Positions 18,340 to 23,295 of a stretch of 27,368 nt of DNA are shown in pieces (the stretch's first letter is position 1; every line of letters begins with the position of its first letter). The position numbers and the translations under genes are program-made. Below the pieces are notes generated by a model. That model had not been told where the DNA came from. It did not search any database and saw only the letters and a list, made by a program, of their open reading frames with translations. This DNA comes from a virus: positions 1-27,368 of the IMG/VR virus record IMGVR_UViG_3300025585_000141. One strand, given 5' to 3'.

Positions 18340-18521
18340 TTTCTTTTCCTCGGCAGTGGCGACCAGGCCACGAAGTTACTGTCGGTCATCCATTCACCAA
18401 ACACAGCCACACCCCCACTGGTCAAGATCAACAACTTGACCCCGCGAGGCGGTGGCTCCTGCTCAGGATCGCGCCAGTAGACCTCGCCGCTGGCGGCGCT
18501 CATGTTGCGGTTCTCAGTCAT
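18336..18521 (-). CDS. DUF551-like small protein
   Basis: A 61-residue protein starting in an ATGA overlap with the methyltransferase stop. The pattern [29 protein letters not shown] and a final [10 protein letters not shown] follows the short DUF551-type domain (a proline-rich P..G..vL.L..GG...G.W......AW.PLP layout) found in many phage accessory proteins. Its function is unknown. The overlap supports the methyltransferase frame as the one used in the operon. Confidence 0.73.
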
Positions 18522-19182
18522 AGGTAGGCTTCAATAAAGGCTTGCGCGACTTGCGGGACGATGGCGTTACCGTAGGCGCGCAGTCGTCCCACTCGATTGG
18601 TAACCCCATGAGCCAGCGGCTGAACGCTGGGTTCAACTGGGCGCGATTTTCCGTCGGCACATCTGATAAGGACTGCGCTCGCCCAATAAGAACCATAACC
18701 GGATCGTTTTGTTTCTTGTTCGGATTCCAACGAAACGCCGACAAATCTGAGTCGTTTGGCAGTGGGCACGTTGGAGTCGGCCACCCAGTAGAGTCGCTGT
18801 CGGATGTGCGGCGCGCCGACGCCCGCAGCGCACAGATCGGCTGCCCCGCTGGCGTAACCCGATCCTTCCAAGTCAGCTTGTACAAGGTCGAGCCAAGCAA
18901 GGCCGTCTTTGCTTGCAACCTGCTCGCCAAAGACGACTGGAGGGCGACACTGGCTGATGAGCCAGTGGAACGCGGGCCAAAGGTGCCGCTCGTCATCAAA
19001 CCCAACGCCTTTGCCTGCCGCGCTGAAAGGTTGGCATGGGCAGGATCCAGTCCAGACGGGCTTGTCGTCAGGCCAACCGGCGAGTCGCAATGCCCGGCTC
19101 CAGACTCCGATGCCTGCAAAGAAGTGACACTGGGTATACCCGGCAAGTTCAACTGGTTTGATATCTTCAATTGATCGCTCAT
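18514..19182 (-). CDS. Overprinted frame: 222-aa LTWKxRxTPxGR family protein inside the methyltransferase gene
   Basis: A 222-codon open frame, shifted one base relative to the methyltransferase and almost fully contained in it, from ATG 19182. It encodes [69 protein letters not shown] and [21 protein letters not shown] recognise this as a family widely present in phage proteomes, usually hypothetical or labelled methyltransferase. Each of its conserved blocks lies exactly over a conserved methyltransferase block (for example [14 protein letters not shown] over [14 protein letters not shown]). So two well-populated families may be two readings of the same DNA. Whether this frame is translated is not shown: it has no clear ribosome site, and the operon's stop-start overlaps follow the methyltransferase frame. 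It may be a true overlapping gene or a long-lived annotation shadow. Confidence 0.35.
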
Positions 19183-19273
19183 CCACTATTCCAGGTGCAA
19201 TATGCCCTGCCGCAATAAGGTTTCTCAACCACTGTGCGGCATATGGGTCGATCTCGTTATAAAAGGCGGTCAC
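18518..19273 (-). CDS. Dcm-type DNA cytosine-C5 methyltransferase
   Basis: A 251-residue methyltransferase with GTG start overlapping the previous stop (GTGA). It transfers a methyl group from S-adenosylmethionine to C5 of cytosine. Motifs: FFAGIG at about 51-56 (I), GSCPCQPFS at about 76-84 (IV, catalytic Cys80), VVFGEQVAS at about 113-121 (VI, EQV for the usual ENV), [13 protein letters not shown] at about 153-165 (VIII) and YGNAIVPQ at about 234-241 (X). The EID-type piece normally after motif I ([20 protein letters not shown]) comes before it here, a reordered subfamily common in phages. The target-recognition region is very short (about 60 residues), so its target may be short or it may be degenerate. 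Protection from host restriction is the likely use. A second long frame overlaps it. Confidence 0.92.
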
Positions 19274-19380
19274 CGTCTGCTCCTAACGCCATGCGCCTTC
19301 TCGATAAGCCTGGCGAACCGGAACGGTTGCTGCTTGGCTTGGTGCCAGAGTTCCGACAGTTCGGCATCAGTGAGGGGCAT
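19270..19380 (-). CDS. Very small protein, MPLTDAELSELW type
   Basis: A 36-residue protein read from ATG 19380: MPLTDAELSELWHQAKQQPF, then [16 protein letters not shown]. The ribosome site (GAGAGAAG) lies in the previous gene and its stop overlaps the methyltransferase GTG start. The LTDAELSELW.QA......FARLIE part is a short helical motif that often appears at the start or end of phage accessory proteins. The frame is open for 34 codons further upstream, over the 51-aa gene, but that part looks like a shadow. Confidence 0.55.
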   Translation of the reverse strand: MPLTDAELSELWHQAKQQPFRFARLIEKAHGVRSRR

Positions 19381-19720: not shown

Positions 19721-19942
19721 TCAAAATGGTGCTGGTTCAAAATCATCATCAGAACTCTTGTCCTGACGCTTGATCGGATTTGCTATCCGCTTCAGATTCT
19801 CAACTGGCAAAGCAAACCGCACAGGAAACGGCCACCCATCTGGCGACGGCGCACTGCACCAAGCCTGATGGCCATCCACAGACTCAACACGCAAGGCCTG
19901 CTCAATGCCTTTGTGACGCACAAAGTCCCCTGGCCTGATCAT
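19721..19942 (-). CDS. Small SH3/KOW-like protein
   Basis: A 73-residue protein whose ATG overlaps the nuclease stop (ATGA). The start MIRPGDFVRHKGIEQALRVE then SVDGHQAWCSAPSPDGW and PFPVRFALPVENLKRI forms a short beta-barrel-like pattern (G-D-x-V-x-h...V..v....v.V......LkrI), like small SH3/KOW modules in phage accessory proteins. The C-terminus is acidic (DKSSDDDFEPAPF), reminiscent of the acidic tip of single-stranded DNA-binding proteins. Its place right after the nuclease fits a partner in recombination, but this is inference. Confidence 0.68.
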   Translation of the reverse strand: MIRPGDFVRHKGIEQALRVESVDGHQAWCSAPSPDGWPFPVRFALPVENLKRIANPIKRQDKSSDDDFEPAPF

Positions 19943-20976
19943 CCGACAATCCTCCCGTCAAATGCTGCTCTCAGTTGTTTAACAAACTCAGGCGGGTTAG
20001 CACAAGCCAACGGGTTGCCAACAATCTCTCGACTGCCAAACACCGTCGCATCCGGTTCGCCGTTCGCTACAGCCTGATCATCAATCAAAAACACCGCAGT
20101 CCACTGGTCGCGGGGTTCAGCCATTTTCCACGGAACAAGATCAAAATGCAAGACATGGCTATCACAGCCCTGTTGCTGCCAGTCAACAGGTATGCCATCC
20201 GAATCATGCCTCTCGCATCTCCAAGAGCCATCCTCCTTGGCCGTGCTGTGAGCGCAAGTCCTGCAGTTCACTTCCTTGGTTAACTTGCTGCCATGACATA
20301 GATCATGCGCTGCACAAAACTTGCACTGATACCACGACGGATCAGAACTGATCGGAGGCGGCATACGATCCTCTAGCGTCAGACGCTTGCCTCGCTCCAG
20401 ATATTTCTGGGCGACTTCTTCGTCAAACCTAACCCGCTCGGTGTATAGCCTGTCGTCGTCTTTGCAGACCGCGACGTACAAGGCTCGCTCAATCTTCATA
20501 CCAAGCATGTACAACTGCATCTGGACGAAGTGTTGTGGCTTGGACTTCTCCACGCCGTGTTTCTCCAAGTCATCAAATGACTTCTTGCTGTGCGTCTTGA
20601 TCTCCAAGATATGCTTGGTCTTTTCTGCTCCAGGCACTCCGGCATGAATGATTCCGTCCACATGGCCACCAATGTGACCACCAAAGTCACAGCGGCTTTG
20701 CTGCGCTCCGGTGGCCCGCACATCCATGCCAATGGCCCGCAGGTCAGACACGACCGTTGCTTCCTCGTTCTGCCCACGACGAAACACCCGCAGGATTCGA
20801 CCGGGGAACTGCTCGATCACAGCCCAGCGAAATGACAGCCAGAGCCATCTGTCGCATGGATGGCCCAGAACAGAAGCTCCCATGTAGACACGAGACTTGT
20901 CTTTTCTAGACTTGTTTTCGTGAAATATATCTACAAGTTCTTGTAATTTATGGTTTGTTTGAGGAATTTTGCTCAC
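19939..20976 (-). CDS. Fe-S PD-(D/E)XK nuclease, Cas4/RecB-like, with extra Cys-rich domain
   Basis: A 345-residue nuclease with GTG start overlapping the IbrA-like stop (GTGA). Active-site motifs of the RecB/Cas4 fold: E71-E72 helix, GGHVDGII with D107, HILEIKTHS with E125 and K127, and FVQMQLYM with Q151/Q153. Four cysteines placed as in Cas4/AddB iron-sulphur nucleases are present: Cys41 (GHPCDRW) and CKFCAAHDLC (218, 221, 227). After these, a second Cys/His group (CRTCAH, CERHD, GCDSH, residues about 237-273) forms another putative metal site of a type found in phage versions. The expected role is end-resection of DNA for recombination, likely with the Sak4-like ATPase and DUF669 protein. 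An exonuclease of this kind without CRISPR genes nearby is not a CRISPR-adaptation protein. Confidence 0.88.
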   Translation of the reverse strand: MSKIPQTNHKLQELVDIFHENKSRKDKSRVYMGASVLGHPCDRWLWLSFRWAVIEQFPGRILRVFRRGQNEEATVVSDLRAIGMDVRATGAQQSRCDFGGHIGGHVDGIIHAGVPGAEKTKHILEIKTHSKKSFDDLEKHGVEKSKPQHFVQMQLYMLGMKIERALYVAVCKDDDRLYTERVRFDEEVAQKYLERGKRLTLEDRMPPPISSDPSWYQCKFCAAHDLCHGSKLTKEVNCRTCAHSTAKEDGSWRCERHDSDGIPVDWQQQGCDSHVLHFDLVPWKMAEPRDQWTAVFLIDDQAVANGEPDATVFGSREIVGNPLACANPPEFVKQLRAAFDGRIVG

Positions 20977-22193
20977 GACAAGGCCTCATTTTTTTTGTCT
21001 TTTTTTATTTTTAAATACTTGTTGTAAGCATCGCTTTTAGGTTGTGTAAGGCCAAGACCTTTGCACCACCAGTCGTTACGCAACAAGACTTTTGCCATAC
21101 GACGCCACGACGGAACCCAATACTTTTTTTCTAATTCCCGTGGCGCGTAGTCTGGAATGCCGTTTCTGTACCCTCGCTTGTGCCATCCAAGCAACCATTC
21201 GCTGAACCGCTTTGTGTAGTGATCTCTAGTCACGGCGGGCATGGTCGCAAGCAGCAGGTTCGTAAAACTGCGCCAAGTGTGACCAGGAGGCAACGTTACT
21301 TTCTGGTAACCGTTGATGTTTCCGCTCTCTTCAATGTACAGCGCTCCCGAATTTGCACCATTGACGCGAGCAATTAACTTTCCCCACGTTTGCGGCTCAA
21401 TCAAGTGATACAGCCATAGGCCGCGCCTTTGATCGTCGCCGTATGGTTGACACAAACGCATCTGATGCAACGACACCCCTGCCAGTTGCATGCGGTCATA
21501 CACTTCGTTGTGAGGCTTGCTTGGAAATGCCGAGTGATACTTCCAGATGTCAGTTACATGCCAGTCATAGATCGGATAGACGTTGTACACGCTGTCCGTT
21601 ACTTTTGTCGTCCATCGCTTGCCGAAATGAGTTTCCTTGTCCCAGACAGCGATTGTTCTGAATCGGTTCAAAGACTCATCGGCACGGATTCCGATAAACG
21701 CCGCAGTGTTACGTCCATTCGCGTACCACACAGCGAACAGTTCGATGAACTCCTCAAACTCCATTTTCGGGTGAAAGAAGTCAAAAAATTTTGTGTCGCT
21801 GATAACCCCATTGCTATTCGGCATAGGGCGAACCCAGTCATCCTTGCGCTCTGGATCCCAAGCGCACCATACGGGTTCGTAGTTGCTGACGGCGTTTCGT
21901 AACTTGATTGGCAAGCATACCCAGTACGGCTCTATGTTGTTCTTGTAAAGCTCCAGCATTTCTTCTGCATGCTTGATTGTCAAGTTGTACTGTGCTTCCA
22001 AGTCGATTAGCAGCACGCCAACCTTGCGGTTGCGCCTGATTGCTTCATCCATAACCAAGTGCATCATAACGCTGGAATCTTTTCCAGCAGAGAAGCTAAT
22101 GTAAATAGCCTCAAAGTGATCAAAGACATATCTAATTCTGTCTTTTGCGGCTTGAAGTACGGTGACACCAATGCGCTTTTTGATGGATGACAT
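20973..22193 (-). CDS. IbrA-like protein, PAPS-reductase/ATP-pyrophosphatase family with DUF3440
   Basis: A 406-residue protein. I choose ATG 22193, one base after the IbrB-like stop, giving MSSIKKRIGVTVLQAAKDRI; a start at 22262 would overlap the upstream gene by 68 bases. The PP-loop SFSAGKDS (residues about 33-40) marks the PAPS reductase/ATP-pyrophosphatase superfamily (usual SGGKDS). The DUF3440-type part follows: LIDLEAQYNLTIKHAEEM, WVRPMPNS, FIGIRADESLNRFRTI, YPIYDWHVTDIWKYH, and the WLLGWHKRGY..GIPDYAP block. IbrA with IbrB in Escherichia coli ECOR-9 is linked to expression of the eib genes; the chemistry is not known to me. Cys-containing active-site residues cannot be assigned. The gene is AT-richer than most neighbours. 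Confidence 0.87.
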   Translation of the reverse strand: MSSIKKRIGVTVLQAAKDRIRYVFDHFEAIYISFSAGKDSSVMMHLVMDEAIRRNRKVGVLLIDLEAQYNLTIKHAEEMLELYKNNIEPYWVCLPIKLRNAVSNYEPVWCAWDPERKDDWVRPMPNSNGVISDTKFFDFFHPKMEFEEFIELFAVWYANGRNTAAFIGIRADESLNRFRTIAVWDKETHFGKRWTTKVTDSVYNVYPIYDWHVTDIWKYHSAFPSKPHNEVYDRMQLAGVSLHQMRLCQPYGDDQRRGLWLYHLIEPQTWGKLIARVNGANSGALYIEESGNINGYQKVTLPPGHTWRSFTNLLLATMPAVTRDHYTKRFSEWLLGWHKRGYRNGIPDYAPRELEKKYWVPSWRRMAKVLLRNDWWCKGLGLTQPKSDAYNKYLKIKKDKKNEALS

Positions 22194-22194
22194 A

Positions 22195-23295
22195 TCAGTA
22201 AAGCTCCGCTTCAGTACGTCCGCCAGCTTGATCGTAAGTAACGGTTTCTCGGCCGTTGGCAATCAGCCACTTGTTTAAATACTCAAGTGCAAGATTGTCC
22301 GCATTGTTGCGCTGATCTTTGCTTAACAGGTTATATCCGCCTCGGCATCCGGAAGGAATTCCAAGAGCCTGAGCAACGCTTGCCTGGCCAAGCCAAGCAA
22401 TTCTGTTCATTCTGTCGTTTGTTAGATTGTGTTCGCACGAGTGCTTCCATTCTGATGTAACCACGCGCAAAGCTGCACTAAATCTGTCAATGTCAGACAA
22501 AAAATCTTTATATAACTCCTCTCCCTGCTCTTGTGTCATTCCGTTTGGACACCTCTCGGCAAAAAATCCTGCGCGATAGCATTCCCACTTGTTCCACTCG
22601 TGGAACACTCGACCTTTATCGTCCGATTCAAAGTCAGGAATAACGTCGTTGATTACTTCTCCTATAACTCCGTCTCCACCTTTATCAACTTCCCAAGCCT
22701 CTGAAAATTCTTGATCTTTGAATGCCTCTGCAAGTCCTGTAATCTGACAAAGACGAAGCACCTCGTCTGCATCCATGCCTAAGTTTTTTGCTATTCGTTC
22801 ATCAGACCAATTGCGGCGCTTAAGTTCAATCACAATGTCAGACATTGCTTCTACTTTGTGCTTGCCTCGTGCTCTGTTGTGGCGAATGGTTGCTGCCATT
22901 CGGTCACTTTTGTCAGACTGAGATTCTCGAATACGAACAATTGGCAAGTACCCATGTACCCGACTGGTAATGTCATGGCATTCTTTGCCAACGCGGTGCC
23001 GGTGGAATCCATCTATTACCTCAAACCCAATTTCATCAGGAACAGCAACAATGGGCTGCGTGTATCCATCAGCATCAATAGACACTCGCAAAAGTTCCAT
23101 TTCAGGAGGTGCCACGCTATTTGGGTTGTAATCGTTTGCGTGAACTGTTTGATTCTTAACCCACAATACACAATCCACTGGCTCTGACTTAAATGGACTA
23201 ATTTCGTGCAACTTTATTTTTATCTGATTAATTGCATCGACTCGCTCATCTAACGGAAGGCTATACAATTTTTCAATTAAAGATTCTATTTGCAT
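22195..23295 (-). CDS. IbrB-like ParB-domain protein with C-terminal extension
   Basis: A 366-residue protein with strong ribosome site (AAGGAG, 5 bases from ATG 23295). Residues about 40-125 form a ParB/Srx-like domain: WVKNQTVHANDYNPNSVAPP, EMELLRVSIDADGYTQPIVA and EVIDGFHRHRVGKE. Then TIRHNRARGKHKVEAMSDIV and the HTH-like NWSDERIAKNLGMDADEVLR. This is the pattern of IbrB. Residues about 225-366 are an additional domain (WNKWECYRAGFFAERCPNGM, FSAALRVVTSEWKHSCEHNL, MNRIAWLGQASVAQALGIPS, ending in a charged tail) that I have seen as a separate protein in other phages; the fusion is unusual to me. The N-terminal 35 residues are helical. IbrA follows in an operon pair. Confidence 0.85.
   Translation of the reverse strand: MQIESLIEKLYSLPLDERVDAINQIKIKLHEISPFKSEPVDCVLWVKNQTVHANDYNPNSVAPPEMELLRVSIDADGYTQPIVAVPDEIGFEVIDGFHRHRVGKECHDITSRVHGYLPIVRIRESQSDKSDRMAATIRHNRARGKHKVEAMSDIVIELKRRNWSDERIAKNLGMDADEVLRLCQITGLAEAFKDQEFSEAWEVDKGGDGVIGEVINDVIPDFESDDKGRVFHEWNKWECYRAGFFAERCPNGMTQEQGEELYKDFLSDIDRFSAALRVVTSEWKHSCEHNLTNDRMNRIAWLGQASVAQALGIPSGCRGGYNLLSKDQRNNADNLALEYLNKWLIANGRETVTYDQAGGRTEAELY

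Follow-up and report, generated by a model that had tools for sequence, protein, structure and literature searches.

A C5-methyltransferase gene with an open reading frame nested in its +1 frame

The window, that is, the whole stretch of 27,368 nucleotides analysed here, is a 27-kb phage record from IMG/VR that carries head, tail-spike, helicase, Cas4-type exonuclease and primase genes. Its minus strand encodes a C5-cytosine DNA methyltransferase (hereafter alpha, or the Dcm ORF), and a second open reading frame (hereafter beta, or ORF2) is nested in the +1 frame of this gene. The features of the two frames are as follows.

18518..19273 (minus strand): alpha (Dcm) ORF, C5-cytosine DNA methyltransferase, 251 aa, GTG start
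19280-19284 (minus strand): AGGAG 5' of the alpha GTG start, at a spacing of 6 nt
19079..19123 (minus strand): alpha motif I, by alignment to M.HhaI
19010..19048 (minus strand): alpha motif IV with the catalytic Cys (PCQ), by alignment to M.HhaI and the class I alignment
18917..18931 (minus strand): alpha motif VI, FGEQV, by alignment to M.HhaI and the class I alignment
18770..18817 (minus strand): alpha motif VIII, by alignment to M.HhaI
18524..18580 (minus strand): alpha motif X and C-terminal helix, near-invariant columns; helix 240-250 has a pLDDT >90
18514..19182 (minus strand): beta (ORF2), nested in the +1 frame of the Dcm ORF, 222 aa, ATG start
18814..18957 (minus strand): ORF2 helix-hairpin core, residues 76-123, near-invariant columns and the best-predicted part of the model
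18769..18783 (minus strand): ORF2 WPTPT motif, residues 134-138, start of the putative recognition region
18580..18639 (minus strand): ORF2 motif IX-like segment, residues 182-201, by hhalign to in-frame monomers

Alpha matches Pfam PF00145 (E = 9.6e-12) and PHROG 363 (E = 1.9e-82), and carries the hallmarks of a C5-methyltransferase, namely motif I, the PCQ of motif IV, motif VIII and the GNA of motif X. ORF2 matches PHROG 1008 (E = 2.6e-24) and PHROG 31772 (E = 7.4e-14), both of which differ from the PHROG of alpha, and the same two families were matched by the ORF2 of all 62 class A1 members tested. Searches of Pfam and NCBIfam returned no family for ORF2, and searches of PDB sequences with ORF2 profiles returned nothing meaningful. 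An earlier note, made from the letters of the window, had described a 222-codon frame in the +1 frame of the Dcm gene, quoted blocks of its sequence and recognised in it a family known from phages. The frame is indeed there, the quoted blocks are all present in ORF2, and the two PHROG matches bear out the claim of a known phage family.

We noted that motif VI of alpha reads EQV, which is invariant in the class I alignment; most C5 enzymes have ENV. Elsewhere in the window, a PAPS reductase-like gene (PHROG 2302, 20973-22262, minus strand) adjoins the gene for a Cas4-domain exonuclease (PHROG 1990, 19939-20976, minus strand).

Stop codons are depleted from the +1 frame of the overlap

Relatives were gathered from IMG/VR with Dcm-frame peptides only, so that the sampling was blind to ORF2. 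In all 80 loci obtained in this way, the longest +1 open run spans most of the gene and begins by Dcm codon 38. Stop codons were counted in 63 Dcm-frame-selected representatives with <80% nucleotide identity, and compared to a null of synonymous shuffles that preserved each protein and its codon counts. Across the overlap core (16,518 codons in the 63 genes), two +1 stops were seen versus 218.6 expected; the lowest count in 400 shuffles was 181. The two stops sit at codons 231 and 233 (window-equivalent numbering), right where ORF2 ends. Outside the overlap, +1 stops were at or above expectation (115 versus 89.5 and 72 versus 39.8), and the +2 frame showed no depletion (742 seen versus 637 expected). 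One of the two frames is broken at a handful of loci (L119, L138, L152, L158 and L210).

Both frames are under selection

Position 3 of a Dcm codon is position 2 of an ORF2 codon, hence a change that is silent in Dcm almost always changes the ORF2 protein, and synonymous constraint is directly interpretable. Four-fold degenerate Dcm sites differed at 50% outside ORF2 (codons 1-28, near saturation) versus 20% in the core. This contrast held in 35 of 38 independent Dcm-selected pairs (p = 7e-8), and in 85 of 94 pairs with all loci included. In the overlap, the third base is frozen at Val119 (GTT, 79/79), Leu130 (CTT, 60/60) and Ala221 (GCT, 67/67), while outside the overlap codons 10-28 use all four bases. 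The mean pairwise identity of ORF2 was 0.695 versus 0.352 expected of a shadow, with 38 of 38 pairs above every shuffle. From motif VIII to motif X (window codons 169-206), ORF2 had an amino acid identity of 0.81 versus 0.72 in the Dcm frame. Dcm position 1, equivalent to ORF2 position 3, takes 44% of the substitutions in this part of the gene versus 17% outside the overlap (p = 2e-28). Here ORF2 is the leading frame and the Dcm frame is the passenger.

Dual coding is thus established at the level of selection. The earlier note had left two options, a real and widespread overlapping pair or a frame shadow, without proposing a function for the second frame; the tests for purifying selection that it proposed were run here, and their outcome decides for the former. 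Genes with many second-frame stops and an intact Dcm, which it had named as the sign of a shadow, were looked for among the Dcm-selected relatives and not found. The shadow reading, in which an untranslated ORF2 merely mirrors Dcm conservation in GC-rich genomes, draws on single GC-rich genes, in which such an open frame is nothing exceptional: the length of ORF2 was reached in 12 of 500 synonymous shuffles of the window gene alone, which is moderately unlikely, and at some other loci >70 of 500 shuffles reached the observed open length. However, stop depletion is limited to the +1 frame within the overlap, four-fold sites are constrained, ORF2 identity is double the shadow expectation, and the nested +1 frame also occurs in genes of 39-50% GC; on stop depletion, four-fold constraint, ORF2 identity and the substitution shift we rejected the shadow reading, which has next to no chance of being correct. 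The selection tests settle that a large phage family lying on Dcm genes, suspected of being a database artefact, is real.

Alpha holds the catalytic motifs and ORF2 a putative motif IX

The AlphaFold2 (AF2) model of alpha has a mean pLDDT of 77.7, with values >90 across most of the catalytic domain, and its closest fold is M.HhaI (Z = 14.1, rmsd 2.5, 161 residues aligned of 327). The pLDDT is <50 at residues 175-195 and 216-235, which underlie the putative recognition region and motif IX of ORF2. The alpha profile aligns to in-frame actinophage enzymes over motifs IV-VIII only, and an HMM of motif IX, built from canonical single-chain enzymes, found no match at the expected place in class I alpha members. 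By the HMM, the profile alignment and the low-confidence segments of the model, alpha does not hold motif IX and a recognition domain in its own chain, which suggests one part of a "split" enzyme rather than a complete single-chain member.

We also noted that codons 1-90 of alpha and of its class I relatives look locally permuted, with motif II-III-like sequence before motif I (FFAGIGVW). M.HhaI residues 3-32 align to positions 37-66 of the alpha profile and residues 71-181 to positions 70-176, with residues 33-70 between them unaligned; the fold match of alpha starts at M.HhaI residue 34.

In ordinary C5 enzymes, the motif IX/recognition side contacts DNA, determines specificity, and sits between motifs VIII and X. 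The 490-aa gp16 of prophi91-1 contains motif I, PCQ, motif VIII, an LPTP array, NPRLAxxFSEWMxGWPxGWVT and GNGVVPQQ in one chain. In such actinophage enzymes, the part from the LPTP array to motif IX is matched by the ORF2 profile (E = 1.1e-5) and, more strongly, by the class II ORF2 profile (E = 2.2e-10). These matches cannot be shadows because the actinophages read this region and the catalytic domain in one frame. The WPTPT motif is present in repeats in longer ORF2 relatives, and aligned with the in-frame LPTP repeats of the actinophage enzymes.

The motif-IX HMM matched the C-termini of 26 of 27 class II ORF2 proteins at a domain E<1 (best E = 4.3e-7, EWLMGFPDNHTDL against ERLMGFPDnHTky), with zero matches to reversed ORF2 decoys. 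Among class II alphas, it matched only that of L296, where motif IX has moved into frame 0. The window's own ORF2, which belongs to the diverged class A1, gave no match to this HMM. ORF2 of class A1 is a homologue of that of class II (hhalign E = 1.5e-30), and the assignment of a putative motif IX to the window's ORF2 rests on the class II relatives and the in-frame monomers. A first motif-IX regular expression missed 27 class II genes; those read by eye have variant forms of the motif, and this group has one +1 stop versus 116 expected. Modelled alone, ORF2 is poorly predicted (pLDDT 62, pTM 0.25), with residues 101-120 at about 90; a fold search with this model found no significant match, and the model is too weak for any conclusion. 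Collectively, the selection tests and the alignments show that both frames are conserved as proteins, with the predicted motif IX and LPTP/WPTPT region located in ORF2 and not in frame 0.

A Shine-Dalgarno (SD)-like sequence with an ATG or GTG in the ORF2 frame was found in 47 of 63 genes versus a null mean of 10 and maximum of 19 (~5-fold the expectation). The ORF2 start of the window has just a weak GGA upstream.

The two frames probably encode subunits of one split enzyme

We consider it very probable, from sequence comparison and predicted structure, that both frames encode subunits of one split C5-methyltransferase. Frame 0 would supply the AdoMet-binding catalytic domain with motifs I-VIII and X, lacking a canonical motif IX and an ordered recognition domain, and the +1 frame would supply a small protein that combines the helix-hairpin core with motif IX and at least one WPTPT repeat. 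As the enrichment of SD-like starts suggests, translation of beta probably begins at an internal ATG of its own. Alpha and beta would be expected to come together as a single active methyltransferase of the phage genome, with protection against restriction as its probable purpose. If true, Dcm alone is an incomplete enzyme in these phages, hence specificity predictions and cloning from the annotated gene alone would fail.

The in-frame actinophage enzymes contain nothing that corresponds to the N-terminal hairpin part of ORF2. Moreover, another class of phage Dcm genes with an in-frame motif IX also has a selected, unrelated nested +1 ORF (described below); a nested ORF can thus exist without being the source of motif IX. 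Both observations would fit a real overprinted protein that has a separate job, for example in anti-restriction or regulation, and is no subunit of Dcm. Nevertheless, the recognition region and motif IX are the parts of in-frame enzymes to which the C-terminal half of ORF2 aligns, and exactly these parts are missing from alpha; we therefore regard a separate job as unlikely. Less likely still is programmed +1 frameshifting, which would join the Dcm start to ORF2 in one fused chain, with no separate subunit. In Mycobacterium phage Ochi17, where both frames are interrupted, apparently by one shift, an ORF joins ORF2-like sequence to the C-terminal part of Dcm, and the frame-0 motif IX of L296 is a comparable case; the two frames can thus be joined by indels. 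The strong enrichment of SD-like internal starts, together with +1 stops before the ORF2 start in most genes, makes frameshifting a very improbable explanation.

A C5-methyltransferase split into two subunits, as we favour for alpha and beta, is an architecture already known, with M.EcoHK31I as its prototype; M.EaeI is similar to M.EcoHK31I. In the window and its relatives, the small gene is read from within the large one in a shifted frame, and the small gene of M.EcoHK31I, reportedly described by Lee, Kam and Shaw in 1995, is likewise said to be nested in the large gene in another frame. M.AquI is not known to have a nested frame. A published account describes M.EcoHK31I as two polypeptides, the large one with motifs I-VIII and X and the small one with motif IX, and places its predicted recognition domain in the large subunit (PMC3404938). 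According to the same account, M.AquI is a C5-methyltransferase of two subunits; its split falls within the variable region, and the small subunit holds both motif IX and motif X (PMC3404938). On this description, the phage pair resembles M.EcoHK31I in having motifs I-VIII and X in a large chain and motif IX in a separate small chain, on the phage side as judged by sequence and predicted structure. By contrast, the middle region of the phage pair is conserved mainly in the ORF2 frame, whereas the recognition domain of M.EcoHK31I is assigned in that account to the large chain. M.EcoHK31I is a bacterial type II restriction-modification enzyme, whereas the genes here are those of phages. M.AquI shares the two subunits but has motif X with motif IX in the small subunit, while motif X is in alpha here.

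The single chains of actinophages (prophi91-1 gp16 and relatives) have the same content, in the order motif VIII, LPTP repeats, motif IX and motif X; they differ in that the LPTP array and motifs IX and X are in the catalytic frame, with the +1 frame open only over motifs IV-VIII. We noted that two actinophage Dcm genes (L504, 1403-1936; L242, 785-1291) have a long open +1 stretch (SETWPKTGYMSDGRAYELP..., with LLPTP repeats) before the frame-0 LPTP array, as if the array had changed frame. Another protein hidden in a phage methylase gene is the ShiLan domain, an HNH endonuclease in an out-of-frame ORF (PMC11855218). The ShiLan domain is a homing insertion with an HNH nuclease, whereas ORF2 is a candidate nested subunit.

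A second nested ORF in another class of phage Dcm genes

Dcm genes of another class (L336, L333 and L340-L418), which have their own in-frame motif IX, carry a different +1 ORF of 120-150 aa, here called type B.

L336, 1293-1676: type B nested ORF over motifs VI-VIII, LSPKACEGILRRA type
L333, 1293-1658: type B nested ORF over motifs VI-VIII, same type
L340-L418: type B nested ORF over motifs VI-VIII, same type

The sequence type of these ORFs is LSPKACEGILRRAxRRGKxLPxxL. Among 18 representatives, there were four +1 stops versus 61 expected, and four-fold divergence was 5% in the overlap versus 18-23% elsewhere in those genes. The type B ORF matches PHROG 16143 only, and hhalign found no profile similarity between it and ORF2 of class A1 or class II; homologous Dcm genes thus do not automatically yield similar shadows. 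By eye, a W..SG....G..W resemblance between type B and ORF2 can be seen, which we do not claim as similarity. We lean towards +1 overprinting of phage C5-methyltransferase genes being general, with at least two unrelated products (a motif IX/recognition subunit and the type B protein).

Upon reading L320 in full (ORFs at 992-1543, 1197-1646 and 1609-2313), we noted that Dcm frame 0 ends just past motif VIII; the recognition domain and motifs IX and X resume in a third frame, and the type B nested ORF bridges the gap. The other loci in L319-L326 were likened to L320 by gene length. This layout could be a split gene, or the effect of assembly or an indel.

Distribution and annotation of the nested frame

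The same +1 nesting was found in phages of Lacticaseibacillus, Paenibacillus, Synechococcus, Salmonella (Seunavirus) and Escherichia (N15, K1ind1 and HC6), in human-gut phages, and in bacterial genomes, mostly of Proteobacteria. Ninety-one class II representatives have six +1 stops versus about 470 expected. Searches of plasmids with ORF2 returned only genes named "DNA cytosine methyltransferase" or hypothetical.

PHROG 1008 and 31772 are annotated as "DNA methyltransferase", with no stated mechanism. GenBank records mostly name Dcm alone, and a few name both frames: the nested +1 ORF is entered as "Mte8-like protein" in K1 phages (K1ind1) and as "g62 internal gene" in phage Lily, in each case at the position that ORF2 occupies in Dcm. 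In the literature searched, we found no description of the Dcm overlap in phages, nor of how the PHROG 1008 and 31772, Mte8-like and g62 entries relate to the overlapped gene or to selection on it. The spread across phages of diverse bacteria, the poor annotation and the second nested ORF are likewise not described in that literature.

With same-strand overlaps of about 200-430 codons across very divergent phages, these genes form a rich dataset on the evolution of overlapping genes. Gene callers usually retain one frame, at times the wrong one. In Synechococcus phage Sc-Yong805-2 (L245, 867-1958), the GenBank entry lists the nested ORF (952-1881) as a hypothetical protein and lacks the complete Dcm ORF that surrounds it.
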